Below, one piece after another: positions 41,301 to 64,000 of a stretch of DNA of 64,000 nucleotides. The notes beneath the pieces were generated by a model. That model was not told where the DNA came from, searched no databases, and was given only the letters and a program-made list of their open reading frames with translations. Made by a program: the position numbers and the translations under genes. Position 1 is the stretch's first letter. Each line of letters starts with the position of its first letter. The stretch lies in the NCBI RefSeq assembly GCF_032362555.1, contig NC_083508.1, positions 11,871,001 to 11,935,000 of the forward strand, read 5' to 3'. The DNA is from Amyelois transitella (lineage: Eukaryota > Arthropoda > Insecta > Lepidoptera > Pyralidae).

Positions 41301-44300
41301 GAGTGGTGCGCATGAAACAGGTAGCTCGCAATTACGTGTGGTGGCCGCGCCTGGACGCCGACATAGAGGAGCGCGCGCGCAGCTGTGCCGCGTGCCGCGA
41401 GCAGCGCGACTCGCCGCCGCACTCCGCGCCTGTACCATATTCGTGGCCGACCGAACCTTGGGTAAGGTTACACATAGATTTCTTGCAGCTTGGTGGCAAA
41501 TATTTCTTTTTAATTATTGACGCCCACTCGAAGTGGCTGGAAGTTTTTCAAATGTCGAGTGGCACTTCAGCCCATTTGGTTATTAATAAATTACGAGAAA
41601 CTTTCAGTCGTTTTGGCTTGCCTAAGCAACTAGTAAGTGATGCAGGTCCGCCATTTAGGTCTTTAGAGTTTGAGAAATTTCTAAAGTGCAATGGGGTAAG
41701 ACATATTTTGATCGCACCTTATCATCCCTCGAGCAACGGCGCAGCGGAAAATGCCGTAAAAACGGTGAAGAAAACACTTAAAAAGGCACAGTTGACAGGG
41801 GAGAGTATGGAAAGATCATTAAATAATTTCTTATTACTATATAGGAATAGCGCACATGCGAGTACCCAGAAGGAGCCGGCGGTAGCCATGTTGGGACGGC
41901 GTTTACGGGTGCGATTAGATCTGCTTCGTGCCAACACTCGGGATGTGGTGGAAGCTGCCCAAGACACCCAGGTCAGACATTCAAAGCGTTGTTCTTTGCG
42001 TGATGTACAACCAGGTGACCAAGTTTATATACAAAATTTCTCTAAGAATGGCCCGAAATGGAAGGAGGGTCTGGTGACTGAACGTACGGGGGCCGTTACC
42101 TATAAAGTACAGACCGATAAAGGTGAGCAGCGTAAGCATATTGATCAAGTAATGACCGGGAGAAAATCGATTATATTTCCAACTCCCGAACTCGAGACTG
42201 AAAGACCTCATAACAGTTCAGATTCCCACCAATCTTCTCCCCTCAACGAGGATCATTCGGAATGGGCTTCGAACATACCCATTGACAATGACGATAACAT
42301 TAGGGCTCCACCAGAGCAGGTCTCAACAGAATCTGAAATTCACGCTGACTCTTGGGTAAACAAGGAGCCACGGGGAAATAAAAGTAAAAAGTAAAGAATA
42401 GGAAGAGTATGTTTGTATTTAAACTAAATTGTTTACTATATTATAGTTGTATTAATTTCGCTAGGACAAGATATCTTTTATGTTTTTCTTTGTATGTAGT
42501 TAAAATTAATTTTATTATATCATAATAGATTGTAGAATTTCGCTAGGACAAGAAGGAATATTTTGTGTATACATGTTTGCAATCTTATAGTAGATAGGAG
42601 ACTATTAGTGAAAATCATTTTTTTTTCTGTGTTCATATATTTAAGTATGAATGGATAAAGTTATTTTTTTTTCTTTCTTATGGTAATTATTAAGTTAGCA
42701 CCTAACGAAACACTAAGTTTATTTTTTATATATAAATTATGTAATTTCAAAGGAGGGGAAATATGTAATGTATTAAGGTGAGGGTAACTTAATAATAAAT
42801 AGTCTCGTTCCAACCGCCGTTGTTTTACTACGTATATCACAATAACATCACGCTGCAACTATTAGGAGCGAAAAAATAATGGAAATTGTGAAAAATTATT
42901 CCTCCTTGAGGGTTTCAATGATGCCCAAAATAACTATTCCACGCGGACGAAGTCGCGGGCACAGCTAGTGTACAATAAAGTATTTACAAACAAAATGACA
43001 ACAAGTGACGTCATTGACGATCACACATTACATTACAGATGACCACGAGCCATCCGAGAAACGGCCGGCCGAATTCCAGGTTCCCCCCGCCGTCCTCGAA
43101 GGCATGAAGCGCGACTTCCGCACCCGCTTCCCCCGCCTGTCGCAGCAGATAGACCGCGACTGCCGCATGTGTGTGCACACCCTTATATTGGACGTCATCA
43201 AGTATGCCAATGTGATGACGGCTGATGAGCTCTCTGAAAGAGTACAAAGGCATTATCAGGTCAGTTGGTTTAGTCACTTATAACTTCAGTCCCCTACATC
43301 AATCTCTTACATCAGTCTCCTACATCAGTCTCCTACATCCGTCTCCTACATCAGTCTCCTTCATCAGTCTCCTACATCAGTCTCCTACATCAGTCTCCTA
43401 CATCAGTCTCCTACATCAGTCTCCTACATTAGTCTCCTACATCAGTCTCTTACATCAGTCTCCTGCATCATTCCCCTACAACAGTCTCCTGCATCAGTCT
43501 CCTGCATCATTCTTCTACATCAGTCTCCTAGTCAACTACAAAACAATTAAATAAAATGCTTTTTTTGTTATAGCGTTTCCTTAAGCACATGGACACCGCA
43601 GTACATTTCAACAACGTAGATGCAGACGTAAAGGAAAACATAATGGACTTTGTGGAGAAGCATGCCATGTCTTACCTGCACGAGTGAGTTGCTTATTATA
43701 TTCAAAGAAATATTTTCATTTACTTGAATGTTACAAACAGATGCTTTTACAGTGAGAGACAATATTGTGAGGAAACCTGCACATTCAGGCAACTGGATTT
43801 CATCTGGAAAAAATATTTGTATGTTTGGTATAAATAAACTCAAATTAATGAGCCGATTTAAAAAAATCTTTCACCATTGAGACTTGCTACATTTTTCGAA
43901 AGTTTTGTCAACATTGAATGCTACATAATTCGAAAGTGCTTCAGTTATTATTAAATTGTGTAGGTAGCGCTAATAAAACAACTTGATACGCGCGTGTAGA
44001 TGGCGCTAAATTAAGCTTCAACGGAAGCTTAAAATTAAAATTGTTTTTCTATTTTAGCTCGAGGCATCCCTAATACATTACCATTCTACATTTGTTAAAA
44101 TCGCAAATTGCGCCACACATTTTCTCCTTGTTTTAAAACATACTTAATTGTGATCAATAAAACACATTCCGTCTTGTGTGAAAACACGAAATGTCCTAGT
44201 GAAAGGGCAATTGTTTCAAACATTGTTATCCGTTGATTGGACTAATTCGACATTCGCGTTACTAACTCTGATACGTTATCGTCAATGACGCGAAAGGACG

Positions 44301-46124: not shown

Positions 46125-46687
46125 GTGAGTACATTTTTTTTATGACTTTGAGTATATATGGTGGAGAATTTGAAATTCGAACTTTTTTTTTTTTTATAAT
46201 TTTAGTACGATGTGTTCAGGTTTGAAAATGTAACTAATGACCGCTCTTAAAAGAAAATACAATTTTAAAAATATAAAATAATAATTTAAAAATTCAAATA
46301 CTTCAATATTATTTTGTTTTTAATATCACACGTTGTATAACTTGTTATACATATCTATAAATCATGCTACCTTGTAACCAATATTATATTGTGCGGAATT
46401 TTACAAGTCACAAATAAATTGTTCCACCTTGGTTGTTCCTATTCTCAATTCATTCAAAATTTCAAATTTTTTAAGCAATCAATTAAAATGTTATTATCAC
46501 ACAAATTCTAAGATAAGTAACGATGGTTTTAATTGATTAGTTCGGCGCAATACCATTCAGTCTTCACATTACACGAACGAGATTTCAAAAAAGCAATTAT
46601 ACTGGCACTCTGATCATGATGTAACAAATGTCTTTCATTCATATTGAATTTTATTTCAATAACGAATTTTGATAGTATCAGTCCGAT
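46125..46687. other. Rabex-5 intron or end / upstream region of first Kazal-like gene
   Basis: AT-rich; no exon that could continue the VPS9 domain and no clear repeat. The promoter of the gene at 46688 is expected in the right part. Confidence 0.4.
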
Positions 46688-47944
46688 ATGATTGACATTA
46701 GAATGTCTTGGATAGGTGAGTCTAAGTTAGTCTTGGAGCTGAGCAGTTTTGACAACCGACCGTCCACTGCCAAATGTCTAATGATTTCCATTCTTAAGAG
46801 AATTTTGGTGAAATATCCGGCTTATATAGTGCTTTTGTTTCTTATCGGCACGGGTCTTTGTTTGAAGAGACAAAGATCCGTTATTCACTCACGTGGTGGG
46901 ATTTATTGTGTGTGTCACTTGTGCCGTGTAGTTCCCGGCACCAATAAAAAAAACTATAAATTATAATCTCAATTCCATCATCAAGCCTAAATTCAGAACG
47001 TGGCCTATCAGTCTTTTCAAGACTGTTGGCTCGGTCTACCCCGTAAGACGTGACTATACATATAGTGACATACATACATACATACTATGTATGTATGTCA
47101 CTTGGTGCAGACTTCCTTAGTATGGGGTAGACTGATCAAGAGTTCTGATCGTAAGCTAGTCATTGAATCACAAGTACGCATAAAATTTTTCATCGATTGA
47201 TCTTCTTTAGTCCATTCTTAATTTCAGCTGTGCACTGTTTGTTAGTCAGTGACTCGGTTTGATATATAAGTACCTAATCTCACGATGGCCGTTTGATTCC
47301 TAACAAACGTTTTGACGTCCACAGTTATCGTAATCCTACTTTCAATACCAGCAATAACCAAAATTAGTTGCCTGCGCTCACGGACAGATGGCGCTTTCAA
47401 CAATCCTATGTACAAAAACATCAAATTGAAAATATCAAAGAGATTATCAATAATGAAATCGCCCTATTCGTTCTACGGCCGACATTTAATTTCTAGAATG
47501 GAAAAAAGAACGCTTATATGTGGTAGCGACGCGAAAACATACAAGAATTATAGAGAGTTCCTATTGGCCCGAGTGAAAATGCCGGATCTGAGTATGGTTT
47601 ATAAAGGCCCTTGTCCCGAGGCTTACAAAAGGAGAATGGACGCGGCTCATAAAAGAGGTTTCATCGACTTCTCACTGCTCAGAAATTCGGAATATGAGCC
47701 GGTGAGCGGAGAAAATTTTAGCACTTACAAAATGGAGGCATTTCGTTTGGTAGAAACGGACTTGGAATCTTTTCATCCCAAATCTTGTTTTCTAAGATTT
47801 TTCACGTTGTCTCAAGTTAGGAAAAGTCGAAGTTTATCAAAAGCTGCGCAAGCGCCACTTATTAGCATTCGATACAAGGATAGAGGAAGTGATAGGCGGG
47901 AAGAAAACAGTCTTGTTGTTTTTTTTGCAATACGGTCTCCGTAA
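46688..47944 (+). CDS. Secreted degenerate Kazal-like protein, paralog 1 (215 residues, two exons)
   Basis: Exon 1 46688-46715 (28 nt, MIDIRMSWI) has donor GTGAGT. Exon 2 47325-47944 follows GTCCACAG. They join in phase 1, the same phase as every paralog downstream. The N-terminus WIVIVILLSIPAI reads as a signal peptide split by the intron. One Kazal-like module is recognisable: ICGSDAKTYKNYREFLLARV, then PDLSMVYKGPC. It keeps the Cys before GSD and the final Cys but has lost the Cys after N. A second, weaker module (VSGENFSTYKMEAFRLVE, ending FHPKSC) has Ser in place of its first Cys. There is no Pro/Gly-rich tail. Function unknown; typical Kazal proteins inhibit serine proteases, but this form lacks most of the disulfide framework. 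A truncated SINE A copy lies in the intron. Confidence 0.7.
46920..47062 (+). mobile_element. SINE family A, internally deleted, in the intron of the first Kazal-like gene
   Basis: GCCGTGTAGTTCCCGGCACC joined directly to ATAATCTCAATTCCATCATC and CTGTTGGCTCGGTCTACCCC. It is followed by a palindrome of CATACATACATAC / GTATGTATGT at about 47068-47098. Confidence 0.75.
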
Positions 47945-48192
47945 GCTCCGATGACCTGTTTTTTTTTTAATAAACATCCTTTGAGTATGTCATAACTACA
48001 TTTTTTTTATTTTCCCTTACATTAATTTTAGGTACCTATAATGTATATTTTTATGTGTATCAAACCTCGTTACGAAGTGGTACCCAGATTCGAATCTCAC
48101 TGCGGTCACTGTCTGTTTTCCGAGTTTATGGAAATTAACCCATTGTATTGCACTTTTTGTCGCAAAAATGTATAACTAAATAATAAATATGT

Positions 48193-48292
48193 ACGCGACA
48201 AATTACACACATTGAGCTAGCCCTAAAGTAAGTTCGAGACTTGTGTTATGAGATACTAACTCAACGATACTATATTGTGTAATAAATATTAA
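48193..48292 (-). mobile_element. SINE family B, tail fragment
   Basis: ACAAATTACACACATTGAGC to CTCAACGATACTATATTGTG; about 100 bp of the family shown in full at 44412-44654. Confidence 0.65.
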
Positions 48293-48588
48293 TAATTTTA
48301 TTATATGTAAATGAAATGAACCCCGGTTCAGAGGGGAAAATCCGATAACTACGCTACGATATCCACGTTTGTAGCTGATCTTTGGTAACCAGATACGTAA
48401 ATGGATCTTATTTCTTGCTTGATAACCAGTTAAGGAATAAGATCTTATTTCTTGCTTGATAACTAGCTACGAGAAACGGGTCGTCAAGGCCATATATGCA
48501 AACGCCACGGTTCATTAGTGTTAATAGTTAAATTGTCATTTTCGTAACTATTCGTGTACAGTCCCATTTCTGGATTAAGATTAAAACG

Positions 48589-48646
48589 AATATCCGCTGT
48601 GTCTCATCCTGGAGTGGGAACACGCCAGGATGAGACAGCGGATATT
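48589..48646. repeat. Near-perfect inverted repeat (stem of about 22 bp)
   Basis: Left arm AATATCCGCTGTGTCTCATC plus CTGG (48589-48612); right arm CCAGGATGAGACAGCGGATA plus TT (48625-48646). The arms are complementary except for a 2-nt bulge, with a 12-nt loop. Flanking CTGCCATTAAATTTCCGGGC looks like old repeat sequence. Confidence 0.8.
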
Positions 48647-49053
48647 TGTTGCACCCTCTGCCATTAAATTTCCGGGCCTGGGGTCCGCTTTCCTATTTCT
48701 CTTTTTTCCACTTCTTCCTCAGGTCTAAGACCATTGTAACAAATTACCAATTTTAAATAAGAAATTTACATAATACATACTACCATTACATTTTTTAATT
48801 GTTAAAATAAAGTAAGCATATGTACATTCAGAATATGTTTACTATATACATTTCAATAAAAAGCATTTCATAAAGTTTCTTAGATAATCTCTTGATAACT
48901 GAAGATCACGTCACAAATTAATTTAACGGTTAGTTAATGAATTAAGTTGGATTTTTAAACAGGTCTGGCGTTTTCAAAATGCAATCACTCTACAATTTGA
49001 TCAGCATTGAATATTTATTTTTTCAGAATTACTTTTAAAATTTATATATTAAG

Positions 49054-49813
49054 ATGGATTTTTTGATAACCAATGTTGTGGGTAAGTTAGGTAAATATTC
49101 CAAATTTTTAATTACCGTAATGAACTTTTTTTTTAAAAAGGACATTGGGAACTTTTATCATGGTAAAAACTATAGTTCCCGTGGGATTTGCGAAAAACCT
49201 GTATTCTTTTGTAGGTGGTATTAAATTCTCACGTGTAGGTGACGCTGTATTCTCGCGTGTAAAAGCTAGTAATTCTATATTTATTACAAAATAATAGCAT
49301 TTTATAATTATTGTTAACATAATAAACTTTACATCCACAGGTGTACTATTGTCAATTCAAATAAACAATACAAATGGTGCGCCGAAGTCACGGAGCCATC
49401 ACAATCATAAAAAAACGACCGTAAACAGCTATTGTTCAAATTTAGGTTTCCAGATTATTCCAGAACTTGAGTTATTTTTTATGGTTAATAACAAAACTCT
49501 GCCCGAATGTCGCGATTTGACTTATGTGTGTGCAACTGATAATAAATTAAATTTAAAATACCAAACTTATGAAGAATTCACAATGGCCAGACTATGGATA
49601 TCTGGTCTGCGTATTGCTTACCCTGAAGTGTGTAATGAGAAACATGAGAATGAAAGACGAATGCCCACAGTATATAGAAAAAGATTACCTCAAAACAGCA
49701 GGATTATTGATCGTAAAATTTTCGGAACTGGTATTGAAACTCATAATACTAATGAATTAGAAATGGCTCGGGTTTTTAAACCAAATTTAGGTGATCTTCA
49801 TTTAGGACCATGA
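49054..49813 (+). CDS. Secreted degenerate Kazal-like protein, paralog 2 (166 residues, two exons)
   Basis: Exon 1 49054-49081 (28 nt, MDFLITNVV, donor GTAAGT) plus exon 2 49341-49813 (acceptor ATCCACAG), phase 1. The signal peptide is spread over both exons (LITNVVGVLLSIQI). Module 1 is YVCATDNK, an insertion of a few residues, TYEEFTMARLWISGLRIAYP and EVC. Module 2 is IFGTGIETHNTNELEMARVF then NLGDLHLGP, and the protein stops exactly where the final module Cys should stand (GGA CCA TGA). The first Cys of module 2 is Phe. No Pro/Gly-rich tail. A member of the family reduced to two modules, with the second having lost both Cys residues. Confidence 0.7.
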
Positions 49814-50971
49814 GTTTTTGGATCAAACGCTAGATTTAATTGGTTTCTTGGATCTACTGATGATGTTGTAATAAACACTCTATAGCAAATATTTTGAACA
49901 ACTCTTGTACTTTCTTACTCTCAAACAACTCGTTAGTTCTCTTTTACTCTCAAGCAAATTTTGACTAGTGATGATCCAGTAAAAGTCACGCCATTTTTAG
50001 ATAGCAAGTCTTCATTGATACGTTCTTAAAGAGACACTGTAGCTATAATTTTTAAAGACCTAACTCTACGAGTACGAGTGCGAGTGAAACAAGGCATTCT
50101 GCCGATGATAGCGCTACAAGAACGAAGTCAGAAGACGGTAATCCTTAATTTTTTTCGCTACACTAATGCGAAAACTTGTTAATGGTCCGAATTAACTACA
50201 TGAGATTTTGTACAAGATATATGACTGTATGTTTTCCAAATAAAATAAATTGTATAGTTCTCAAAGACACCAAATCGTATTTATTTAGAACACGATCTTA
50301 TTACCCACTTCTCACTAATAATACTCATTTATGGCTGATTGGCGGGTAGTTCTGGTTCTTAAAATTTAACACGAAATTTTGATAATCGTGAAACATCAAA
50401 TTTGGATTACATAATTAATGAGTTTTAGATGTACCTGAAGGGGTATACGATTAAGCGCATGATGTTGCAAATTACGTACATTTTTCTTAATTTTTTACTG
50501 TAAATTTTCGGTTAAATGGTTTTGATTGAGGATCGAAACAAGGACTTAAAATTATATTATTGTAACAAATATCGTTTTTTTTATAACATTTACGTCTTTG
50601 GTTGGGTTTCATACATTGGATTCTTGGCGTATCCAGGGTTGTTACTGTAAGGAGTGGGGATTCAATAAAGCGGTGGGAGATAAATAAACTTATCGGTTGC
50701 CTCTCATTTCATCTCCTAAAGACCAGCCGTTGTTTTAAGACTTCATACATTTACAGTGTTTGCTTAGAAAGCAAGGGTATTAATCATAATCATTTATTCT
50801 TTGAATATGGTAACAATAAATGAATCATAGTCCGCTGAACACATTATTAACGACAGCTGCCGACCGATTTAGAAACTTCTTTGATCCGAAGCTTTACCGT
50901 ATAGTGGTTTTTGTGGAACTAACAAGAAAAATTTTCCACTAAAATACCTACTTTATTGTCATTTCCTATTT
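49814..50971. other. Intergenic region between Kazal-like paralogs 2 and 3
   Basis: AATAAA at about 50242 could end the paralog 2 transcript. No gene or clear transposon seen. Confidence 0.4.
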
Positions 50972-51089
50972 TTTCTCAATTAAGGTTTCAATTTCATACT
51001 TGTTAAGATATCTCGTCAGTTCCGATTTACAATTATAATTTAAAATGACAAGTAGTCATGCCGTAAAATCAAGTCGTTAAAACAGCCCA
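50972..51089 (+). promoter_or_regulatory. Conserved upstream block of paralogs 3-6
   Basis: TTTCTCAATTAAGGTTTCAA, then TTTCATAC, ending just before ATGTGGAGAGGTGAG, resembles 54934-55055, 59844-59964 and 62988-63108. These share little else outside coding sequence with paralog 3, whose 3' flank does not match. Conservation over 100 bp before the start codon suggests a promoter and 5' UTR. Confidence 0.5.
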
Positions 51090-52461
51090 ATGTGGAGAGG
51101 TGAGGTTAAAGTTAACTACTAAAAATAATAATAAGCATTCAGGTTTATAAATGTGATTTGTATGTAGGTATTTTCAACTCAGCTGGTGCTTTGTCATATG
51201 AGATGTTTTTAGATGACTTTTTAGTCTGCTTCCACAATTTACGTAGAAAGAGATAAAGTTTTATTTAATATAATCTTAGTAAATCGAGTTTTAACATGTA
51301 CACGAGTATGGTTACAGAGAAATGTGACCACCTTATGGCGTTGGTTTATATGGTCAGTTTTATCTGCATCAGACCGTACTTTTTAAATTTTAATTAATAA
51401 CATTTAAACCATCCTCAGGTATTCATTTGCTCTTGTCGGTTCAAATTATTGGTACAATTGACCCACCGAATTTTAGAAATGCCAGATTTAAAGAAAAATT
51501 GTATCAATATAAAGATAAAGCGTTTCATTTGGGACATTTGGATACTGGAACATCAAAGAGAATGTTAATATGCGCAAGCGATGCCAAAACGTATGAGAAT
51601 TATGATGCCTTCGCTATCGCAAGACTGAAACAATCAGATTTACATATAGAACATTCTGGACCTTGTTTTAATTCTAAAGAACTTAATGATGAACCAATAT
51701 GCGGAAATGATGTAAAGACTTACAGTAATTATCGCGAATTAGAATTGTTGCAACTATTACGACCAAACTTGAAGTATCTGCATTCGGGGTCATGCATTCT
51801 TAAAGCTGATTTGAAGGAGACCCAATTGATGAATGCAGTCAGGCGTTCTTCAGGAGCTAAGTCAAAACCTGACTTGCGGAATGCATATTCCCATTATAGG
51901 TATATCATTTCTTGGCCCGGAAAACCGGATACTCCAGGGGGCTACCCGCGCAGACCGGGTGCTTACCCGGGTAGTCCGGGTGCTCCTGGCGCGCCAGGTG
52001 GTAACCCTGGCAGCCCGGGAGCACCAGGCGCTCCTGGTTACCCTTATAATAGCAGTTTTTATATTTATACGGATTATGATGTAAACATACCGGGTCAGCC
52101 CGGGGCTCCTGGGGGCGGATGGGGCGGATGGGGCGGTGGTGGTGACGGATGGGGCGGTGGTGGTGACGGATGGGGCGGTGGTGGTGGCGGATGGGGCGGT
52201 AATGGTGGCGGATGGGGCGGCGGATGGGGCCAACCTGGTCAACCTGGTCGGCCTGGCGGCGGTGGCGGCGGTGGTGGCGGCGGGGGCCAACCGGGCGCTC
52301 CTGGAGGCTGGGGCTGGAGCTGGAGTGGGAGGGGAGGCAAAACGGTCTGGGGTGAAAAGGGTGGCGGTGAAAGTGATCTAGATAAAATTGCTGGCGGTGT
52401 TTTAAATGTTGCAGATGGTATTTATACTATTGTGAAATATGCGGTTAATGATAATTCATAA
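51090..52461 (+). CDS. Secreted Kazal-like protein with Gly/Pro-rich tail, paralog 3 (350 residues, two exons)
   Basis: Exon 1 coding part is only 10 nt (51090-51099, ATGTGGAGAG, donor GTGAGG). Exon 2 is 51419-52461 (acceptor ATCCTCAG). The joined N-terminus MWRGIHLLLSVQIIGTIDPP is a plausible signal peptide. Two Kazal-like modules: ICASDAKTYENYDAFAIARL...HSGPC and ICGNDVKTYSNYRELELLQL...HSGSC. Next comes a low-complexity region with PGAP/PGSP repeats and then GWGGGGDGWGG-type glycine/tryptophan repeats, and a conserved C-terminus DKIAGGVLNVADGIYTIVKY. The collagen-like part lacks a strict Gly-X-Y register. Role unknown; a secreted matrix, silk-like or defence protein is possible, but this is inference. 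Confidence 0.8.
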
Positions 52462-53862
52462 AACTACAATACAATTGGTGACAAATTGTTACTGACAACT
52501 ATATTTATTTAAACTGAATTTATTCCTATTACATACGAATTTATAGCATGTTTTTTATTGATCAGATCCTTAAATTTATTATGTTATTCATTATTGCTGC
52601 CGAGTACCTATCATGTATAAGAGCGTCATTAGTCAATCAAAATGCGCGATGCGACAGGTTCAAATCCTACATCGGTCAAGTACCAATGACAGTATTCTGC
52701 GTTATGTTCATTAGTTTGAGTGAGCTGACTTGACTGCCTATACACGGCGAGGAAACCTGTTCAGTCAGGCAACTGTCGCTTCGTGCAAAAACCCGACTCA
52801 TCCAATCCAGGGCCATGTTTCAAATTGAAGCTCCGGGCAATCCAGGGATATATGGTCAATCTCTTGGCTCAAAGAAGCAGAAAATCATAAGCGCTTCCCT
52901 ACTAGTATTTTTATTGTTTTTTCATTTTGTCCTCATAGTCTTCCCGAGAATTGTTTCGCCACGGACTTGTTTATTACTAGCGACCTGCCCCGAATTCGCA
53001 CGGGAAGCATTTATACACATAAACACCTTCCGCTTGCATCACTCTGTCTATTAAGAAAAAAACTGCATCTAACGATACAGAAGAAGAAACTTTATGCACG
53101 TAAAATGTGCAACAGGTGGACTAAATGCCATTAGACATTCTCTGACAGTCGAAACTTTGAACTATTATACAGTCATCTTCCGTCTAGCGTTGCGCCTGTA
53201 ACCGGCAGTCCAGAGTCGTATAAAAACATGACTTAACATTCGGTAAAGTGACTTCCGTCTATCCTATTTTGCAAGGGAACCTAACCCCATATTCACAATC
53301 ATCCAGTTTCTTGAATCGAGTTCGATCACCGGCGCTCTCTAATGGAATTCATACATACATACATACATATGGTCACGTCTATATCCCTTGCGGGGTAGAC
53401 ATAGCCAACAGTCTTGAAAAGACTGAATGGCCACGCTCAGCTATTTGGCTTAATGATAGAATTGAGATTCAAATAGTGACAGTCGCCTTTTACGACATCC
53501 ATGGGAAAGAGATGGAGTGGTCCTATTCTTTTTTGTATTGGTGCCGGGAACCACACGGAATTCGGCAATATAAATCTCATATTAAGTGTTCCTAGTTGTT
53601 TTTTGAAGATTAAGCATTGCTTTAGCATCTTGTAATGTTAAGGTAAACTGTCGCAGCAATATTTTTTATGGCTGGTGTTACAATTTTTTTAAGATGATGG
53701 ATCTCGTGTCTATAGGTATGTAGATAAACCCGGCGTGGGTTGATTTAGTTATTTGAGAGCCATTAGGTTAGCCGCCTGAGGATAGCGAGCAACTTAATTT
53801 AGTTAGCGCTGAAGTAGACAAAAGCCGAAGGCTCGATGCTCGCGCGCGTTAATTTAGTAGTT
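52462..53862. other. Intergenic region with SINE copies
   Basis: Contains a third SINE type at about 52640-52815 (B-box-like GGTTCAAATCCTAC, then GAGGAAACCTG.TCAGTCAGGC, also seen as a short piece at 43765-43805) and a reversed SINE A at 53349-53561. No gene seen. Confidence 0.5.
53349..53561 (-). mobile_element. SINE family A with internal deletion
   Basis: CATACATACATACATATGGT to GTGCCGGGAACCACACGG. The block TTGCTAGCCCATCGCC is missing. Confidence 0.85.
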
Positions 53863-55055
53863 ACACCGTATTTATTGCTCAGATCCAAAATTTTATTTTA
53901 AATGATTAATAAAGACTTATCAAACCAAAGATAATTTCTATATCTTTACTTACTTTAAAAAGAGGTTATGTTTGTAAGTTTGGGTAATCTTCGGAAATAA
54001 TTATCCGTAAAAAGGTACATCACCTGCGGGTGTTATAGGTTATGTATGTTATATGTACAGTGAACCTCTTTTTAAAGTTTTGTTCGGTTCTTTGATGGTC
54101 AAATATAATTTCCTTCAACCTTTGATCTTAATCCTGGACTGGATAAGTCAGGGTTTTACACAAAACGACTCCCGTCTGGCCTTCAAAACCTTTGCAGAAG
54201 AACCTTACTCGTTTTGAATAGGGACTACATTTAAGATGGAGTGGTTCTTATTAAAATGACCAACTTGGCAAATTTTCCTATGATCAGTATCCTAAAAATA
54301 TGATTTTAATAATGTACCTTCAGTATTACCACGTTTATAAGTCGTCTCACTCTCACATCGTCACGTCTCACGTCGCTCAGAATGGCTCAATCTGCTCTCA
54401 TAAAACAAAGACCAACAACTGACGACAACTCATTAAAAAACCGACCTTATTTATTAGTACATTTAAATTCAAGAACAAAACGTCTCCTGCTATCTCGCTC
54501 ATAATAGTAGTACAATAGCAATAATTGGCTCAAACGCTAAAATATTTTCGCGCGGTACAAAAATTTTACTTCTGCGCTGGTACGTCGGTGTGAAAAAATA
54601 TTTGACCTGGGTAAAAAGCTGTAATATCATGCTATGCCATAAACATGCCCTTTTTCCGAAATTCCTACAGGAGCGAAGTCCCGGGGCGCAGATAGTTTAT
54701 ATTTAAATACAGGGTGGATTTTTATAGGTTAAGCAATTTTTCGATGTGGTGTCTGGCACCAATAATAAAAAGAATAGGATTGCTCCTTCTCATTCCACAT
54801 TTATGTCGTAAAAGGCGACTAAGGGATGAACTTATAAACTTGGGATTCTTCTTTTAGGCGATGGGCTAGCAATCTGTCACTTTTTGAATCTCAATTCTAT
54901 CATTAGCTAAACATAAAATCAACGTTTTTTTTTATTTCTCAATTAAGATTCGATTTCATACCAAGTTATCTTGACAGTAAAATTTTTAATTAAGATTGAA
55001 TATGATATCTTGAAATGTCAGTTTTGCGTTTAACCATTAACTGAAAAGCAGATCA

Positions 55056-58000
55056 ATGTGGAGAGGTGAGATCAAAGTTATATCAAATTACATAAAGATA
55101 TTTAAAAAAGGGTATCATTTAAGCTATCACCAATTTAATTAGTTTTGTGTTTCTTAAATAATAGGGTTTGTCCTCAACATAGTAGATCTGTCACCAAAAT
55201 GTAGTCACCAAACAATGCAAAATCAGTTCCACAATAAATCACCTAAAATCCTGAGATATAAGGTCTAGTACCAAATAAATGTTTTTGTATGTATTATAAT
55301 AGGTGTGTCCTAATAAGTATTTAAGCAAACTAATTTAAAGAGATCACCAATAAATCATATTATGTTACTAGAAAATTGCATTAAGTTCAAATAAAAAATT
55401 AGGGTTGTCATCATCGTTTCAACCAAAAGATTCTGCTACTTAACTAGACTCCCAAGGTTCTAAATTTCCACTGGTAGTATAAATTATATTTAAATAAATT
55501 TTTTAGCAGAGTAGTAAATAAAACAATTAAAGTTAAAATAATCAATATTTATTGTTGAAAATAATTACCACTGAACAATCAGCGCTGGTTTAAAATAGCT
55601 GGCTTATGGCTAGCAGAATAGTAGATAAAACACTTAATTAAAGTTAAAATAATCAATATTTATTCTTAAAAATAATAACCACTGAACAATCAGCGCTGGT
55701 TTAAAATAGCTGGCTTATGGCTAGCAGAATAGTAGATAAAACACTTAATTAAAGTTAAAATAATCAATAGTTAACTACTACCCATCGTTGAGGCCGGATT
55801 GGTCAATTTTTAAAGCGCGCCAATTTGTCTCCGCCCCTTTGATCATTTTTTCATTAAAATTATAAATTGATGTATTAAATTGGTAACGAATACTATTAAT
55901 TTAATATCTGAACGAAATAAAATGTAACTACTGTATTGGTGACAAAATATCAAATAAAAAGGAGTCGCAGTCAGGGATCGATAATCGATTTATTTGGTGA
56001 CAGATCTACCATTCTGAGCACAGAGCTATTATTTAAGTAACAAAACTATTATTATAAGAACGAAGTTTATATTCATGTAATTCAATATAATTTTATTGGT
56101 TATCGATCTCTTATTTTACACATATATTAACATTAATTTGATAATTCATACCTGGGAACAATTTTTGTTTATCTGAGAACGAAAATATTTCGTGGCGATA
56201 GATCTATTTATTAGGTGATACAACTTGATGACAAATTTAAATTTTGGTGATAGAAAATATAGTTCCCTTTAAAAAAATTAAATTAAATATTGTTATTTAA
56301 CGGCGTCCGATTTTCGGAAGCACGTCCAACCGCTGGGTTGTACTGTACTTACCACACTCATTATTCAACCCGCATCAGGCACTCTGAACAGGGACTGCAT
56401 AAATTTGAAAATATATTGTCACTTAGGCTTATTAACTTGGGATTCTTTTATTAGACGATGGGCTAGCAACCTGTCACTATTTGAATCTCAATTTTATCAT
56501 CAAGCCAAACTGCTGAACGTGGCTTATCGTTCTTTCAAGATTGTTGGCTCTGTTTGGCCCGCAAGGAATATAGAAGTGATTATATTTATATGTATGTATA
56601 TACAGGGTGACATTTAAAACAACTGCATCCTTTTAAACATAGACTATATCCATGCTTCTGAGCCGTTTGAGCCTATTTTTATTTAAATTAAACGTCATCA
56701 TTTTCACATTTAAAAAACCCTCAAAAACTACGTCACACGCTTTATTAAAGACCAATACTACAAAAAGAAATTAAAACTAAACATGTAAAGAAATGTCTAA
56801 AAAATAAATTATTTTTCTAGTATCAAGATCAAGTAAAGTACAGGGTTGTCGAGATCGCTCAGCTGAATGAATTGTGTCGTTGACCTCTGAATCTTGCGCG
56901 TCGCTTTTCCGCCGGCCGGGGTGATATTACGTATTTAGGATCGTGGATTTTGATACTTTTATTTTTTTCGTACTTTCTGAAATATGAACCAATATTTTTT
57001 TTTTAACGTTTTTAAATATCCTTTAGATGAGTACACTTAACAGTTAAATTTATGCAGTTGAATAAAAAGTCACCCTGTATTGTTATTTATAACATATCAG
57101 CATACACCGTACATACGTAAAATCACTTTCTTGGATTGGTAACCAGAGTCTTCATCTTTCGATCATTACTTCACCCGCATTCATAACTCTCTTCATAAAA
57201 GCTCGTCGGTTTTGGGGTACTTTTGACCTGGTTTTTCGCAACGATAACACATACATATTGTTACGTCTTTATCTCTGATTGGTAGACATACATATAATAT
57301 AAATATAACTTAAATAGCTCTCCTTACCCTTTCCTAGAAAAACGCTGCTACACGACAGCTTTTGGCCATTACTTATGCTTTGTCTTCAGTCGTCTACAAC
57401 TAATTAACATTAACAGACTTCTTCCTCCTGCGTTAATATCGGTTCGAAATTTCATGAGTACTTTTATGTACAAATTTTTAATGTATTCAGGTATTCATAT
57501 ACTGTTGGCGGTTCAAGTTATTGGTACCATCGACCCACCGAATTCAAGAAACATCGAACTATGTAGATATGGAAACTACATATATCAAGATATGGAAAAA
57601 TCACCTTATTCGGGTCGTTGTGGTGCATATTCGGATACTGCAACATCAAAGAACACTTTGATATGCGGGAGCGATGCCAACACATATGAAAATTTGGAAA
57701 CCTTCGCGATTGCACGGTTGAAACAACCAGATTTACACGTAGTACATTCAGAGCGGTGTTCTAATTCTAGCACTGCTCAAGCTGACTCCAATCCACTTAT
57801 AGATGTACCAATATGCGGAAGTGATGTTAGGACTTACAATAATTATCGCGAATTAGAACTGGCTCAACTGTTACAACCAAACTTGAATGTTCTCCATACG
57901 GGACCGTGTATAATAGAAGCAAATTTTAAAGAATCTCAATTAAAAAATTCAGTCAGGCGCTCTTCGGGACTCGATTCAAAACCTGAAATGCGGAATGCAT

Positions 58001-58692
58001 ATTCCCATTACAAGTATGTTGTCTATTCGCCCGGAGCCCCGGGTGCTCCAGGAGGCTATCCAGGTAGACCGGGTGCCCCTGGCGGATCTGGTGGCTATCC
58101 AGGTAGACCGGGTGCCCCTGGCGGATCTGGTGGCTCTCCAGGTGAACCCGGCCGCCCCGGTTATAATTGGGATAGCAGCTACTCGTGGCATTGGGATTCG
58201 GATGAAGAATATTGGGGCCGCCCCGGTAGACCGGGTGCCCCTGGCGGGTCTGGTGGCTCTCCAGGTGAACCCGGCCGCCCCGGTTATTATTGGGATAGCA
58301 GCTACTCGTGGCATTGGGATTCGGATGAAGAATATTGGGGCCGCCCCGGTAGACCCGGTGAACCCGGTAGACCTGATAGCGGCTGGGGAAAACCAGGTCA
58401 GCCTGGCAGGCCCGGTAGGCCTGGATACGGTGGTGGGGGTGGTGGCCGACCTGGTAAACCTGGCAGTGGAGGTGGTGGTGGTGGTGGCGGCGGCGGCAGT
58501 GGAGGCCGACCAGGGCAACCCGGGTCTCCCGGCTGGCTCAGGGACGAAAATAAGGACGGAGGGAGAATAGGCTGGACCGAAAAGGGTGATGGAGTAAGCC
58601 CTTTAGGCAAAATAGCTGGCGGAGTTTTAAATATCGCGGAAGGAATATACGGTGTTGTCAAGAATACGGTTGGAGACGCAAGGGATTTTTAA
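55056..58692 (+). CDS. Secreted Kazal-like protein with collagen-like PG tail, paralog 4 (403 residues, two exons)
   Basis: Exon 1 coding 55056-55065 (10 nt), exon 2 57491-58692, phase 1. Signal peptide MWRGIHILLAVQVIGTI. Kazal-like modules at about 60-93 (ICGSDANTYENLETFAIARL...HSERC) and 110-143 (ICGSDVRTYNNYRELELAQL...HTGPC) have exactly 31 residues from first to last Cys in each. A dibasic SVRRSSG precedes the Pro/Gly-rich region (183-352), rich in PGRPGAPGG and including two copies of a 41-residue block with WDSSYSWHWDSDEEYWGRP. The C-terminus (353-403) ends with LGKIAGGVLNIAEGIYGVVK, a predicted amphipathic helix. The 2.4-kb intron contains two DNA transposons and SINE pieces. Function unknown; no protease-inhibitor activity can be assumed. 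Confidence 0.85.
55110..56267. mobile_element. 1,158-bp non-autonomous DNA transposon in unit 1
   Basis: Defined by comparison with unit 3, where the site is empty (AAGATATTTAAAAAAATTAA at about 63149). Begins GGGTATCATTTAAGC and ends ATATAGTTCCC, with imperfect terminal inverted repeats sharing GGG and CTATCACCAA. It is flanked by TTTAAAAAA on both sides (a 9-bp duplication). It includes about 2.5 copies of a 107-111 bp repeat (55505-55790). No coding capacity; superfamily not assigned. Confidence 0.8.
56603..57077. mobile_element. 475-bp MITE with CAGGGTGAC inverted ends (unit 1)
   Basis: Left end CAGGGTGACATTTAAAACAA, right end reversed CAGGGTGACTTTTTATTCAA. TA is duplicated on both sides. 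The empty site in unit 2 reads TGTATATATTGTTATTT (about 60330-60346), which fixes both ends exactly. TA duplication and TIRs fit a Tc1/mariner-type MITE. Confidence 0.9.
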
Positions 58693-59964
58693 TAGTTCTT
58701 TTTGGCGACTATAAAGTACTGTACTTAACAAATTTGCAAACTGGATTAATTTCTAGTACACCGTATTTATCGCTCAGATCCAAAGTTTTATTTTAAATGA
58801 TTAATGAAATAAAGAATTATAAAATTAAAGATAATTTTTATATCTGTACTGTAATTACTTTAAAAAGAGGTTACGTTTGTAATTTTGTTTGTTTGTAAGG
58901 GGTAATCTTCGGAAATACTTATTCGTAAAAAAGGTACATCACAGGTGTTATAGGTTATGTATGTTATATGTACTTACAGTGAGTCTCTTATCAAGGTTTT
59001 GTTCGGTTCTTTGATGGTCAAATCTCATTTCCTTCAACCTTTCATCATAATCCTGGACAGGGTAAGTCAGTGTTTTACACAAAACGACTCCCGTCTGGCC
59101 TTCAAAACCTTTGCAGAAGAACCTTCCTTGTTTTAAATGAGGACTTCATTTAAGATGGAGTGGTTCTATTAAAATGAAAAACTTGGCAAATTTCCCTATG
59201 ATCAGTATCCTAAAAATATGATTTTAATAATGTACCTTCAGTATTACCACGTTTATAGGTCGTCTCACTCTCACATCGTCACGTCGCTCAGAATAGCTCA
59301 ACCTACTCTCATAAAACAAAGACTAACAACTGACGACAATTAATTAAAAAACCGACCTTATTATTAGTACGTTTAAATTCAAGAACAAAACGTCTCCTGC
59401 TATCTCGCTCATAATAGTAGTATAATAGCAATAATGGGCTCAAGCGCTAAAATATTTTCGCGCGGTACAAAAATTTTACTTCTGCGCTGGTACGTCGGTG
59501 TGAAAAAATATTTGACCTGGGTAAAAAGCTGTAATATCATGCTATGCCATAAACATGCCCTTTTTCCGAAATTCCTACAGGAGCGAAGTCCCGGGGCGCA
59601 GATAGTTTATATTTAAATACAGGGTGGATTTTTATAGGTTAAGCAATTTTTCGATGTGGTGTCCGGCACCAATAATAAAAAGAATAGGATTGCTCCTTCT
59701 CATTCCACATTTATGTCGTAAAAGGCGACTAAGGGATGAACTTATAAACTTGGGATTCTTCTTTTAGGCGATGGGCTAGCAATCTGTCACTTTTTGAATC
59801 TCAATTCTATCATTAGCTAAACATAAAATCAATGTTTTTTTTATTTCTCAATTAAGATTCGATTTCATACCAAGTTATCTTGACAGTAAAATTTTTAATT
59901 AATATTGAATATGATATCTTGAAATGTCAGTTTTGCGTTTAACCATTAACTGAAAAGCGGATCA

Positions 59965-61840
59965 ATGTGGAGAGGTGAGATCAAAGTTATATCAAATAAC
60001 ATATTTAAAAAAAATAAAATTAAATATTGTTATCTTACGGCGTCCGATTTTCGGAAGCACGTCCACCCCTCTGGGTTGTACTGTACTTACCACACTCATT
60101 ATTCAACCCGCATTAAGCACTCTGTACAGGGACTGCATAAATTTAAAAATATATTGTCACTTAGGCTTATTAACTTGGGATTCTTTTATTAGACGATGGG
60201 CTAGCAACCTGTCACTATTTGAATCTCAATTTTATCATCAAGCCAAACTGCTGAACGTTTCTTATCGTTCTTTCAAGATTGTTGGCTCTGTTTGGCCCGC
60301 AAGGAATATAGAAGTGATTATATTTATATGTATGTATATATTGTTATTTTTAACATATCAGCATACACCGTACATACGTAAAATCACTTTCCTGGATTGG
60401 TAACCAGAGTCTACATCTTTCGATCATTACTTCACCCGCATTCATAACTCTTTTCATGCAAGCTCGTCGATTTCGGGTACTTTTGACCTGGTTTTTCGCA
60501 ACGATAACGCATACATATTGATACGTCTTTATCTATGATTGGTAGACATACATATTATATAAATATAACTTAAATAGTTCTCCTTACCCTTTCCCAGAAA
60601 AACGCTGCTACATGACAGCTTTTGGCCATTACTTATGCTTTGTCTTCAGTCGTCTACAACTAATTAACATTAACAGACTTCTTCCTCCTGCGTTAATATC
60701 GGTTCGAAATTTCATGAGTACTTTTATGTACAAATTTTAATTCCATAAATGTATTCAGGTATTCATATACTTTTGGCGGTTCAAGTTATTGGTACCATCG
60801 ACCCACCGAATTCAAGAAACATCGAACTATGTAGATATGGAAACTACATATATCAAGATATGGAAAAATCACCTTATTCGGGACGTTGTGGTGCATATTC
60901 GGATACTGCAACATCAAAGAACACTTTGATATGCGGGAGCGATGCCAACACATATGAAAATTTGGAAACCTTCGCGATTGCACGGTTGAAACAACCAGAT
61001 TTACACGTAGTACATTCAGAGCGGTGTTCTAATTCTAGCACTGCTCAAGCTGACTCCAATCCACTTATAGATGGACCAATATGCGGAAGTGATGTTAGGA
61101 CTTACAATAATTATCGCGAATTAGAACTGGCTCAACTGTTACAACCAAACTTGAATGTTCTCCATACGGGACCGTGTATAATTGAACCCAATTTTAAAGA
61201 ATCTCAATTAATAAATTCAGTCAGGCGCTCTTCGGGACTCGATTCAAAACCTGAAATGCGGAATGTACATTCCCATTACAGGCATGTTGTCTATTCGCCT
61301 GGAGCCCCGGGTGCTCCAGGAGGCTATCCAGGTAGACCGGGTGCCCCTGGCGGATCTGGTGGCTATCCAGGTAGACCGGGTGCCCCTGGCGGGTCTGGTG
61401 GCTCTCCAGGTCAACCCGGCCGCCCCGGTTATTATTGGGATAGCAGCGACTGGTGGTATTGGGATTCGGATGAAGAATATTGGGGCCGCCCCGGTAGACC
61501 CGGTAAACCCGGTAGACCTGATAGCGGCTGGGGAAAACCAGGTCAGCCTGGCAGGCCCGGTAGGCCTGGATACGGTGGTGGGGGTGGTGGCCGACCTGGT
61601 AAACCTGGCAGTGGAGGTGGTGGTGGTGGTGGCGGCGGCGGCAGTGGAGGCCGACCAGGGCAACCCGGGTCTCCCGGCTGGCTCAGGGACGAAAATAAGG
61701 ACGGAGGGAGAATAGGCTGGACTGAAAAGGGTGATGGAATAAGCCCTTTAGGCAAAATAGCTGGCGGAGTTTTAAATATCGCGGAAGGAATATACGGTGT
61801 TGTTAAGAATACGGTTGGAGATGCAAGGGATTTTGAATAG
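59965..61840 (+). CDS. Secreted Kazal-like protein with collagen-like PG tail, paralog 5 (363 residues, two exons)
   Basis: Exon 1 coding 59965-59974 (10 nt), exon 2 60759-61840. Almost identical to paralog 4: same signal peptide, same two modules with two-Cys spacing, same C-terminus. It differs by having a single WDSSDWWYWDSDEEYWGRP block instead of two (123 bp shorter) and scattered substitutions (for example DGPICGSD for DVPICGSD, EPNFKESQLI for EANFKESQLK). The intron is 784 bp because unit 2 lacks the transposons found in unit 1. The frame is intact, so both copies are probably expressed. Confidence 0.85.
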
Positions 61841-63108
61841 TTCTTTTTGGCGACTATAAAGTACTGTACTTAACAAATTTGCAAACTGGATTAATTTCTA
61901 GTACACCGTATTTATCGCTCAGATCCAAAATTGTATTTTAAATGATTAATGAAATAAAGAATTATAAAATTAAAGAAAATTTTTATATCTGTACTGTAAT
62001 TACTTTAAAAAGAGGTTACGTTTGTAATTTTGTTTGTTTGTAAGGGGTAATCTTCGGAAATACTTATTCGTAAAAAAGGTACATCACAGGTGTTATAGGT
62101 TATGTATGTTATATGTACAGTGAGTCTCTTTTCAAGGTTTTGTTCGGTTCTTTGATGGTCAAATCTCATTTCCTTCAACCTTTCATCATGATCCTGAACA
62201 GGCTAAGTCAGTGTTTTACACAAAACGACTCCCGTCTGGCCTTCAAAACCTTTGCAGAAGAACCTTCCTTGTTTTAAATGAGGACTTCATTTAAGATGGA
62301 GTGGTTCTATTAAAATGAAAAACTTGGCAAATTTCCCTATGATCAGTATCCTAAAAATATGATTTTAATGTACATTACCTTCAGTATTACCACGTTTATA
62401 GGTCGTCTCACTCTCACATCGTCACGTCGCTCAGAATAGCTCAACCTACTCTCATAAAACAAAGACCAACAACTGACGACAACTCATTAAAAAACCGACC
62501 TTATTATTAGTACGTTTAAATTCAAGAACAAAACGTCTCCTGCTATCTCGCTCATAATAGTAGTATAATAGCAATAATGGGCTCAAGCGCTAAAATATTT
62601 TCGCGCGATACAAAAATTTTACTTCTGCGCAGGTACGTCGGTGTGAAAAAAAATTTGACCTGGGTAAAAAGCTGTAATATCATGCTATGCCATAAACATG
62701 CCCTTTTTCCGAAATTCCTACAGGAGCGAAGTCCCGGGGCGCAGATAGTTTATATTTAAATACAGGGTGGATTTTTATAGGTTAAGCAATTTTTCGATGT
62801 GGTGTCCGGCACCAATAATAAAAAGAATAGGATTGCTCCTTCTCATTCCACATTTATGTCGTAAAAGGCGACTAAGGGATGAACTTATAAACTTGGTATT
62901 CTTCTTTTAGGCGATGGGCTAGCAATCTGTCACTTTTTGAATCTCAATTCTATCATTAGCTAAACATAAAATCAACGTTTTTTTTTATTTCTCAATTAAG
63001 ATTCGATTTCATACCAAGTTATCTTGACAGTAAAATTTTTAATTAAGATTGAATATGATATCTTGAAATGTCAGTTTTGCGTTTAACCATTAACTGAAAA
63101 GCAGATCA

Positions 63109-63118
63109 ATGTGGAGAG
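63109..63118 (+). CDS. First coding exon (10 nt) of a further paralog 6, rest beyond the window
   Basis: ATGTGGAGAG plus donor GTGAG, in the same context as 55056 and 59965, with the conserved upstream block. Unit 3 continues to the window end without reaching the place of exon 2. By the unit 1 layout, that exon should lie about 400-450 bp past position 64000. Confidence 0.65.
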
Positions 63119-63489
63119 GTGAGATCAAAGTTATATCAAATTACATAAAGATATTTAAAAAAATTAAATTAAATATTGTTATTTAACGGCGTCCGATTTT
63201 CGGAAGCACGTCCACCCCTCTGGGTTGTACTGTACTTACCACACTCATTATTCAACCCGCATCAAGCACTCTGAACAGGGACTGCATAAATTTGAAAATA
63301 TATTGTCACTTAGGCTTATTAACTTGGGATTCTTTTATTAGACGATGGGCTAGCAACCTGTCACTATTTGAATCTCAATTTTATCATCAAGCCAAACTGC
63401 TGAACGTGGCTTATCGTTCTTTCAAGATTGTTGGCTCTGTTTGGCCCGCAAGGAATATAGAAGTGATTATATTTATATGTATGTATATA

Positions 63490-63964
63490 CAGGGTGACAT
63501 TTAAAACAACTGCATCCTTTTAAACATAGACTATATCCATGCTTCTGAGCCGTTTGAGCCTATTTTTATTTAAATTAAACGTCATCATTTTCACATTTAA
63601 AAAACCCTCAAAAACTACGTCACACGCTTTATTAAAGACCAATACTACAAAAAGAAATTAAAACTAAACATGTAAAGAAATGTCTAAAAAATAAATTATT
63701 TTTCTAGTATCAAGATCAAGTAAAGTACAGGGTTGTCGAGATCGCTCAGCTGAATGAATTGTGTCGTTGACCTCTGAATCTTGCGCGTCGCTTTTCCGCC
63801 GGCCGGGGTGATATTACGTATTTAGGATCGTGGATTTTGATACTTTTATTTTTTTCGTACTTTCTGAAATATGAACCGATATTTTTTTTTTAACGTTTTT
63901 AAATATCCTTTAGATGAGTACACTTAACAGTTAAATTTATGCAGTTGAATAAAAAGTCACCCTG
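63490..63964. mobile_element. 475-bp MITE with CAGGGTGAC inverted ends (unit 3)
   Basis: Same length, ends and site as the copy at 56603-57077, differing by at most a few bases (for example ATGAACCGATA for ATGAACCAATA). It was therefore copied together with the unit, not inserted twice. Confidence 0.9.
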
Positions 63965-64000
63965 TATTGTTATTTATAACATATCAGCATACACCGTACA

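Follow-up and report, generated by a model that had tools for sequence, protein, structure and literature searches.

Classical Kazal protease inhibitors carry six cysteines, which form the disulfides 1-5, 2-4 and 3-6, and their reactive-site loop is held between Cys2 and Cys3. Here, a family of degenerate Kazal proteins is described from the pyralid moth Amyelois transitella, in which most of these cysteines are missing and some members carry a long glycine-rich tail. The family was met as a row of five genes and the start of a sixth in a stretch of 64,000 nucleotides (RefSeq assembly GCF_032362555.1, contig NC_083508.1, positions 11,871,001 to 11,935,000, forward strand), referred to throughout as the window, and these genes are named p1 to p6 in their order along the row. 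Family loci are named by contig (C3, C4, C7, C29 and C31) in the 327-Mb genome of 33 contigs that was searched, the window being C4:11,871,001-11,935,000. Sequence comparison points, at roughly even confidence, to a non-inhibitory structural or adhesive secretion in which Kazal heads would be joined to glycine-rich polymer tails.

Kazal proteins of moths have been described from several secretions. GmSPI-2 of Galleria mellonella (PDB 2m5x and 4hgu) is a 36-residue silk Kazal protein with four cysteines and potent inhibitory activity; its disulfides join Cys5 to Cys24 and Cys13 to Cys39, and Cys5 and Cys13 flank the reactive loop (PMC4169406). The hemolymph peptide Pr13a of the same species is Kazal-like, is reported to lack the conserved Kazal domain, is antimicrobial and does not inhibit trypsin, elastase or thermolysin (PMC10925678). 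For Bombyx mori ten Kazal genes, BmSPI59-68, are listed, each with a single domain or several, and the Kazal domain is described there with three disulfides (PMC3278429). A Kazal expansion in the genome of Hyphantria cunea was linked by its authors to silk (PMC7079503), 14 Kazal genes from the urticating hairs of Parasa lepida were linked by theirs to venom (PMC8145965), and for the oak processionary caterpillar a six-cysteine Kazal is described and Kazal proteins occur in the venom (PMC11335235). Kazal inhibitors have also been found in silk or cocoon (PMC8708004, PMC4169406) and in labial salivary glands, where several are highly expressed (PMC3203145). Since Kazal genes are thus known from silk, salivary gland, hairs and venom, no single tissue is indicated.

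The A. transitella family resembles GmSPI-2, a Kazal protein of a moth secretion with fewer disulfides, in the reduction of its disulfides; unlike GmSPI-2 as described, with its four cysteines and one module, it has two cysteines per module, several modules and often a tail, and it appears to stand one step beyond GmSPI-2 in disulfide loss. The likeness to Pr13a is one of description, not of sequence, both being Kazal-like and, for Pr13a, non-inhibitory; the available account of Pr13a mentions no glycine-rich tail. Likewise by description and not by sequence, the family recalls the Kazal genes of Hyphantria cunea and Parasa lepida in being numerous. In contrast to the family, the available description of BmSPI59-68 mentions neither two-cysteine modules nor glycine-rich tails (PMC3278429).

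Kazal descent and cysteine loss

The family module, with the consensus VCGNDxxTYxxxxLxxAQxxxPxLxxLHxGPC, shares with the Kazal modules of ovomucoid, rhodniin, infestin and follistatin (PF00050, PF07648) the core C3-G-x-D-x-x-T-Y ... H-x-G-P-C6 in the same spacing; it differs from them in mostly lacking cysteines 1, 2, 4 and 5, and the remaining protein is different. In Pfam, the gathering scores for Kazal_1 and Kazal_2 were exceeded by p3 (Kazal_1, E 8.9e-9, two stretches), p4 (Kazal_2, E 1.7e-6) and p5 (Kazal_2, E 1e-6), p1 reached 19.8 bits for Kazal_1, under the cut-off of 21, and p2 gave no Kazal match. Four of five relatives that were also scanned lay above the gathering score and one, the C3 gene, below it. 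A profile of 30 modules compared with the PDB matched agrin (E 4e-19, over several modules), rhodniin (4e-11), infestin and follistatin; all PDB matches of significance were chains containing Kazal domains, and the Galleria silk protease inhibitor 2 was matched weakly (E 0.013). These searches indicate that the modules derive from Kazal protease inhibitors, and the kept cysteines are taken as Kazal Cys3 and Cys6 because the PDB matches place them so.

Nothing except Kazal rose above the Pfam cut-off in p1-p5 and the five relatives, and NCBIfam, a library made for prokaryotes, gave nothing for p3-p5. The original prediction had called the family undescribed, and the Pfam and PDB profile searches, which return Kazal only at significant scores, agree with it. 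In the searched literature, which leaves aside supplementary files and subscription journals, no description of such a family was found, and members may sit among plain "Kazal" annotations in other moths. Two further memberships were considered and rejected. Light-chain fibroin and fibrohexamerin have no Pfam match in p1-p5, and their genes lie on C20 and C28. Chorion proteins likewise have no Pfam match in p1-p5, and 15 of the 16 chorion matches in the genome fall on C28 and one on C8, with none on C4 or C29, which is weak evidence.

Cysteine loss was counted, with recent duplicates, in those modules of at least 26 residues in which Cys3 and Cys6 are both present. Of 44 such family modules, 43 lack any cysteine between the two, 38 lack a Cys2 candidate (5 to 10 residues before Cys3) and 37 lack both. 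Among other Kazal modules of the same genome (C2, C5 and C16), none of 45 lacks the intervening cysteine and two of 45 lack the preceding one. When only distinct family modules are considered, 35 of 40 have exactly two cysteines. Disulfides 1-5 and 2-4 therefore cannot form in most modules, which leaves the inhibitory loop without its clamp. The family modules thus show neither the six-cysteine pattern nor the clamped reactive loop of classical Kazal inhibitors, nor the two disulfides, one framing the loop, of the GmSPI-2 type, as usually the Cys3/Cys6 pair alone is kept. On these counts, the modules would no longer inhibit proteases.

The gene row and the wider family

The row consists of five two-exon genes on the forward strand (46,688-61,840) and ends with exon 1 of p6 (63,109-63,118), as had been predicted. 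In p1, exon 1 (46,688-46,715; 28 nt, encoding MIDIRMSWI and the first base of the next codon) runs from the ATG to a GTGAGT donor in phase 1, and exon 2 (47,325-47,944), with an open frame behind a CCACAG acceptor, completes a protein of 215 residues; it has a single intact module (47,516-47,614), a second module with Ser instead of Cys3, and no glycine-rich tail. The 28-nt exon 1 of p2 (49,054-49,081; MDFLITNVV and one codon base) ends in phase 1 at a GGTAAGT donor, and with exon 2 (49,341-49,813) it gives 166 residues. p2 is probably a decaying copy: the first of its modules is stretched, and in the second Cys3 is replaced by Phe and the Cys6 codon by a TGA stop; the whole-genome match continues beyond one TGA.

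The other genes begin with a 10-nt micro-exon, ATGTGGAGAG (MWR), which is common to p3-p6 and slightly changed in the C29 and C31 relatives. In p3, exon 1 (51,090-51,099) and exon 2 (51,419-52,461) encode 350 residues with modules at 51,568-51,666 and 51,697-51,795, a Gly/Pro/Trp-rich tail and the C-terminus; a 21-nt tandem repeat occupies 52,125-52,220. The 403-residue protein of p4 (exon 1, 55,056-55,065; exon 2, 57,491-58,692) has modules at 57,661-57,759 and 57,811-57,909, a Pro/Gly-rich tail and the C-terminal sequence LGKIAGGVLNIAEGIYGVVK, and its tail contains a 123-nt tandem duplication, the tandem repeat spanning 58,102-58,360. In p5 (exon 1, 59,965-59,974; exon 2, 60,759-61,840; 363 residues), the modules lie at 60,929-61,027 and 61,079-61,177 and are followed by tail and C-terminus. 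The second exon of p6 appears as an open frame just outside the window, from about C4:11935383. In all six genes a leader, hydrophobic as judged by eye only, is interrupted near its start by a phase-1 intron and continued in a long exon, in line with the predicted split signal peptide. The claim that all paralogs share two modules stands for p3-p5 and fails for p1, with its Ser for Cys3, and for p2, in which both modules are altered. As predicted, p3-p5 each add a Gly/Pro-rich region and related C-termini, and p1 and p2 lack the tail.

Recent tandem duplications produced p4, p5 and p6, as seen from direct repeats at 54,323-63,516 (blastn). The three units match at 93-98% over their main blocks, non-coding DNA included, and at 87-91% in smaller blocks, and outside the genes the p5 and p6 units are spaced 3.14-3.15 kb from start to start.

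At least 27 family loci were found in the genome, a lower bound because genome searches score the best candidates only: six on C4, 18 frames on C29, and single loci on C3, C31 and C7. With the p4 head as query, the whole-genome search returned modules of this kind on C29, C3 and C31; the fetched loci, searched with a profile, yielded the C29 cluster of 18 frames in about 75 kb and the single frames on C3 and C31; and the C7 locus was added by a genome search with a C29 member as query. This lone, distant member (C7:2569616-2570122), with CKMCVCGSDGVTYKND...HFGPC, is possibly near the ancestral form. In the C29 cluster, C29_1116987 has no start codon at the position where its relatives have ATGTGG, C29_1115453 is a fragment and C29_1134214 ends after one module; other frames of at least 110 codons in the fetched stretch are mostly transposon-like or nondescript, judged by eye only. 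These loci support and widen the prediction of a secreted, rapidly expanding family built from degenerate Kazal proteins, of which some bear Pro/Gly-rich tails; the row in the window is one branch of a family that lies mainly on C29. Viral spread was considered and rejected: among 106 stretches of viral contigs matched by the window module alignment there was no relative. Two large multi-Kazal frames in opposite orientation lie at C5:767135-770611 and C5:779015-782113, with 20 and 15 profile matches, and their listed modules mostly keep the usual cysteines.

The first exon links the branches. As stated above, it measures 10 nt in p3-p6 and 28 nt in p1 and p2; C29 and C31 members have a like exon upstream, ATGTGGAAAG or, at 10-13 nt, ATGATGTGGCAAG and near variants, with the acceptor in the same phase. 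A micro-exon pattern matched 14 times in the fetched loci, C29 accounting for nine of the matches, C4 for four and C31 for one; this is not an independent count, as the pattern was written from exons already seen. A micro-exon of 10-13 nt is found in 13 of 15 tailed genes (the exceptions are the C3 gene and C29_1138714) and in the fragment C29_1134214. In most family members a phase-1 acceptor stands at the matching place in the hydrophobic leader, which makes secretion probable.

A promoter element accompanies the micro-exon. The element TAATTTCAAGCCAARTTA, allowing up to two changes in the first 14 bases, lies 123 to 156 nt before the ATG in all ten C29 and C31 micro-exon genes. Its 17-base core AATTTCAAGCCAWRTTA was counted in the whole genome, which is the sole independent control: of ten exact matches, one, at C28:4700330, has no recognisable family gene within 2 kb downstream; the other nine belong to the C29 cluster, where eight precede micro-exon genes and one precedes the copy without start codon. 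Tolerating one mismatch raises the genome total to 44, versus 26 for the pattern read backwards. By these counts the element is well supported in the C29/C31 branch, and the shared micro-exon and element (the latter in C29/C31) argue for common ancestry and co-regulation.

In the window, a diverged copy, TTCGATTTCATACCAAGTTATCTT, precedes p4-p6 at -107 with a profile score of 7.1, in a background (best scores in 400 random 600-nt stretches) in which 4.1 is passed in 5% and 9.8 marks the 99% point. The candidate copy before p4 lies at 54,949-54,972, and those before p5 (59,858-59,881) and p6 (63,002-63,025) are recent duplicates of it and not independent; for the window the element is only suggestive. 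An enrichment of TAATTA motifs was seen upstream, within 120 nt in 7 of 9 non-redundant promoters, reduced from 14 (background mean 1.83, P 0.0005), and no conclusion is drawn from them, the motif being common in AT-rich DNA.

A tree of the heads was made from 22 rows; five of the 27 loci were left out (p2, C29_1115453, C29_1116987, C29_1134214 and the C7 locus). The C4 and C3 genes group together weakly (60/81), five tailless C29 genes group at 93/97, and ten C29 and C31 genes, tailed ones included, at 99/98. Tails therefore occur in two separate groups; gain on two occasions and loss between the groups both fit the tree, whose root is not fixed. Several tailless members have a C-x-x-C motif soon after the last module, and a similar motif follows the glycine-rich part in some tailed ones (by eye), so that the tail may have grown inside an older, short protein.

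Glycine-rich tails, a proposed structural secretion and its rivals

By a sliding-rule definition, the Gly/Pro-rich region measures 123 residues in p3, 196 in p4 and 155 in p5, with 35-48% glycine. The tails had been predicted to be collagen-like, and this holds for their composition and not for their periodicity in the window proteins: the longest unbroken Gly-X-Y runs are nine triplets in p3 and eight each in p4 and p5, mostly poly-Gly, and runs of that length were reached by 26, 9 and 13 of 500 shuffles, respectively. With collagens and other glycine-rich structural proteins the family shares a Gly/Pro-rich composition and, on C29, long triplet runs. C29_1101165, C29_1104643, C29_1109128 and C29_1138714 have 25, 31, 24 and 28 unbroken triplets, lengths reached by none of 500 shuffles, and these long runs are partly GGP repeats or poly-Gly. 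Unlike collagens, the window members do not exceed nine triplets, and Pfam gave no collagen match in p1-p5 nor in the 25-triplet protein C29_1101165. The glycine-rich regions of the family exceed 600 residues at their longest, and the longest poly-Gly run, in C29_1120346, has 42 residues and mixed codons.

The codons bear on how the glycine arose. In glycine runs of at least six, the identity of adjacent codons is not above expectation in 7 of 10 genes; identical neighbours number 86/282 in C29_1120346 (expected 0.30) and 7/65 in C29_1104643 (expected 0.28). This mixture disfavours simple triplet slippage as a whole, which is rejected as the origin of poly-Gly in these seven genes, and favours glycine held at the protein level. 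Selection was estimated as dN/dS (Nei-Gojobori). For p3/p4 it is 0.42 in the head and 0.30 in the tail; for the pair a1/a3, 0.30 and 0.61; and for the C29 trio, 0.25-0.30 in the tails and 0.62 and 0.89 in the heads, the third head pair having no synonymous change. Very recent pairs range from 0.14 to 4.39 on few changes. The mixed codons, together with the tail values of 0.30 (p3/p4) and 0.25-0.30 (C29 trio), suggest that the tails are kept at the protein level.

If the proteins form a structural or adhesive secretion, the modules would still fold as small strand-helix-strand heads with one disulfide, and these heads, lacking the clamped reactive-site loop, would act as binding or assembly domains rather than as canonical inhibitors. 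The glycine-rich tails, with PGxPG, GGP and poly-Gly and patches of Tyr, Trp and Asp, would form an extended, self-associating polymer. One gland might co-secrete these proteins into an extracellular material such as glue, fibre coat, spermatophore or egg coat, and the tailless paralogs could be their soluble partners. More tentatively, the family may be a new class of structural proteins, with non-inhibiting one-disulfide Kazal heads joined to poly-glycine, GGP and PGxPG polymers, two branches (C4/C3 and C29/C31), a dedicated promoter element in the larger branch, and a role in moth glue, coat or fibre with a fast turnover of copies and perhaps between species. If the structural reading is true, it would add a protein class to lepidopteran materials and offer a test case for inhibitors turned into building blocks. 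In either case the family is a Kazal lineage that has dropped the disulfides holding the inhibitory loop while the module itself has been retained, multiplied and diversified, and coupled to poly-glycine of up to 42 residues. The micro-exon and the promoter element would serve as handles for locating orthologs and the tissue.

Several observations weigh against this reading. The window tails are without collagen periodicity. Six of the 44 modules retain a cysteine 5 to 10 residues before Cys3. Glycine codons are over-uniform in p4 (9/14 versus 0.42 expected), in C29_1138714 (14/30 versus 0.37) and slightly in the C3 gene (16/48 versus 0.29). Values of dN/dS near or above 1 occur in the a1/a2 tail (0.99), the p4/p6 head (0.98) and, on very few changes, the p5/p6 head (4.39), and the alignment of glycine-rich tails is uncertain. 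Six tailless C29 genes, and also the C3 gene, yielded no micro-exon. As to the element, its ten-of-ten count comes from promoters from which it was itself derived by k-mer counting, several of them recent duplicates; it is weak before p4-p6, and the profile scan showed nothing outstanding before p1, p2 and p3. Nor was it found upstream of light-chain fibroin in a profile scan of 1,551 bp (best score 3.9), a weak scan since the first match starts at model position 22 and the true first exon may lie beyond these 1,551 bp, or upstream of fibrohexamerin in 1,901 bp, where only short core strings were sought and the evidence is weak.

The main rival, which we hold to be unlikely, is that these are immune effectors, that is, secreted non-inhibitory Kazal-like proteins acting on microbes. 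Pr13a sets the precedent, being antimicrobial and without effect on three proteases in the available account (PMC10925678), and a fast tandem turnover with recent duplicates and decayed copies would fit an arms race. The glycine-rich regions and the apolar C-terminus, which in p4 reads LGKIAGGVLNIAEGIYGVVK, are in style like those of glycine-rich antimicrobial proteins. However, glycine-rich regions of more than 600 residues with 42 consecutive glycines are not known from antimicrobial proteins, p1-p5 match neither attacin nor any other immune family in Pfam, and the kinship of Pr13a, likened by description only, is putative.

The same anatomy might serve elsewhere if these were reproductive proteins shaped by sexual conflict, whether in seminal fluid, in the spermatophore or in colleterial glue; this seems rather improbable. 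Fast turnover of a secreted family would suit it, and three B. mori protease-inhibitor genes, none known as a family member, are described as male-biased in metamorphosis (PMC3278429). Against it, a literature search on Kazal proteins in lepidopteran spermatophore or seminal fluid gave mite and fly work only.

It is about as improbable that the modules still inhibit serine proteases and shield a secretion from digestion as GmSPI-2 does. The Kazal homology is clear in Pfam and the PDB profile, and GmSPI-2 is potent with four cysteines, so that fewer disulfides need not end the activity (PMC4169406); its loop, however, is clamped by its disulfides, and the family lacks the cysteine between Cys3 and Cys6 in 43/44 modules and Cys2 in 38/44.

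Highly improbable is a set of largely decaying, functionless loci, in which old inhibitor copies shed cysteines and glycine repeats grew by slippage. Decay is seen in p2 and in some C29 copies: the element at C29:1118124 is followed by no start codon, and the frames at C29:1115453 and C29:1134214 are short. Most frames, however, are long and uninterrupted, exactly two cysteines are present in 35 of the 40 distinct modules, the older comparisons give dN/dS below 1, the glycine codons are mixed and the promoter element is conserved.

Other features of the window

A long tandem repeat at 3,555-5,246 keeps an open frame of over 500 codons in either direction, reads HTAQYLLRQPRQRQHLIGRYELAQRLIN on the reverse strand and has a unit of about 28 codons by eye. 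Two further long frames are present: on the reverse strand at 25,835-28,252, an open frame of 806 codons with psq-type helix-turn-helix, Tc5 DNA-binding and DDE_1 transposase domains, and on the forward strand at 38,387-42,391, a retrotransposon with one open frame of 1,335 codons and reverse transcriptase, RNase H and integrase domains. Between them, a tetratricopeptide-repeat protein is encoded by a single frame of 644 codons (30,357-32,288, reverse strand), and we take it to resemble the intraflagellar transport protein TTC30/IFT70. Just upstream of the gene row, an exon with a VPS9 domain (45,909-46,145, forward strand) presumably belongs to a RIN/sprint-like gene.

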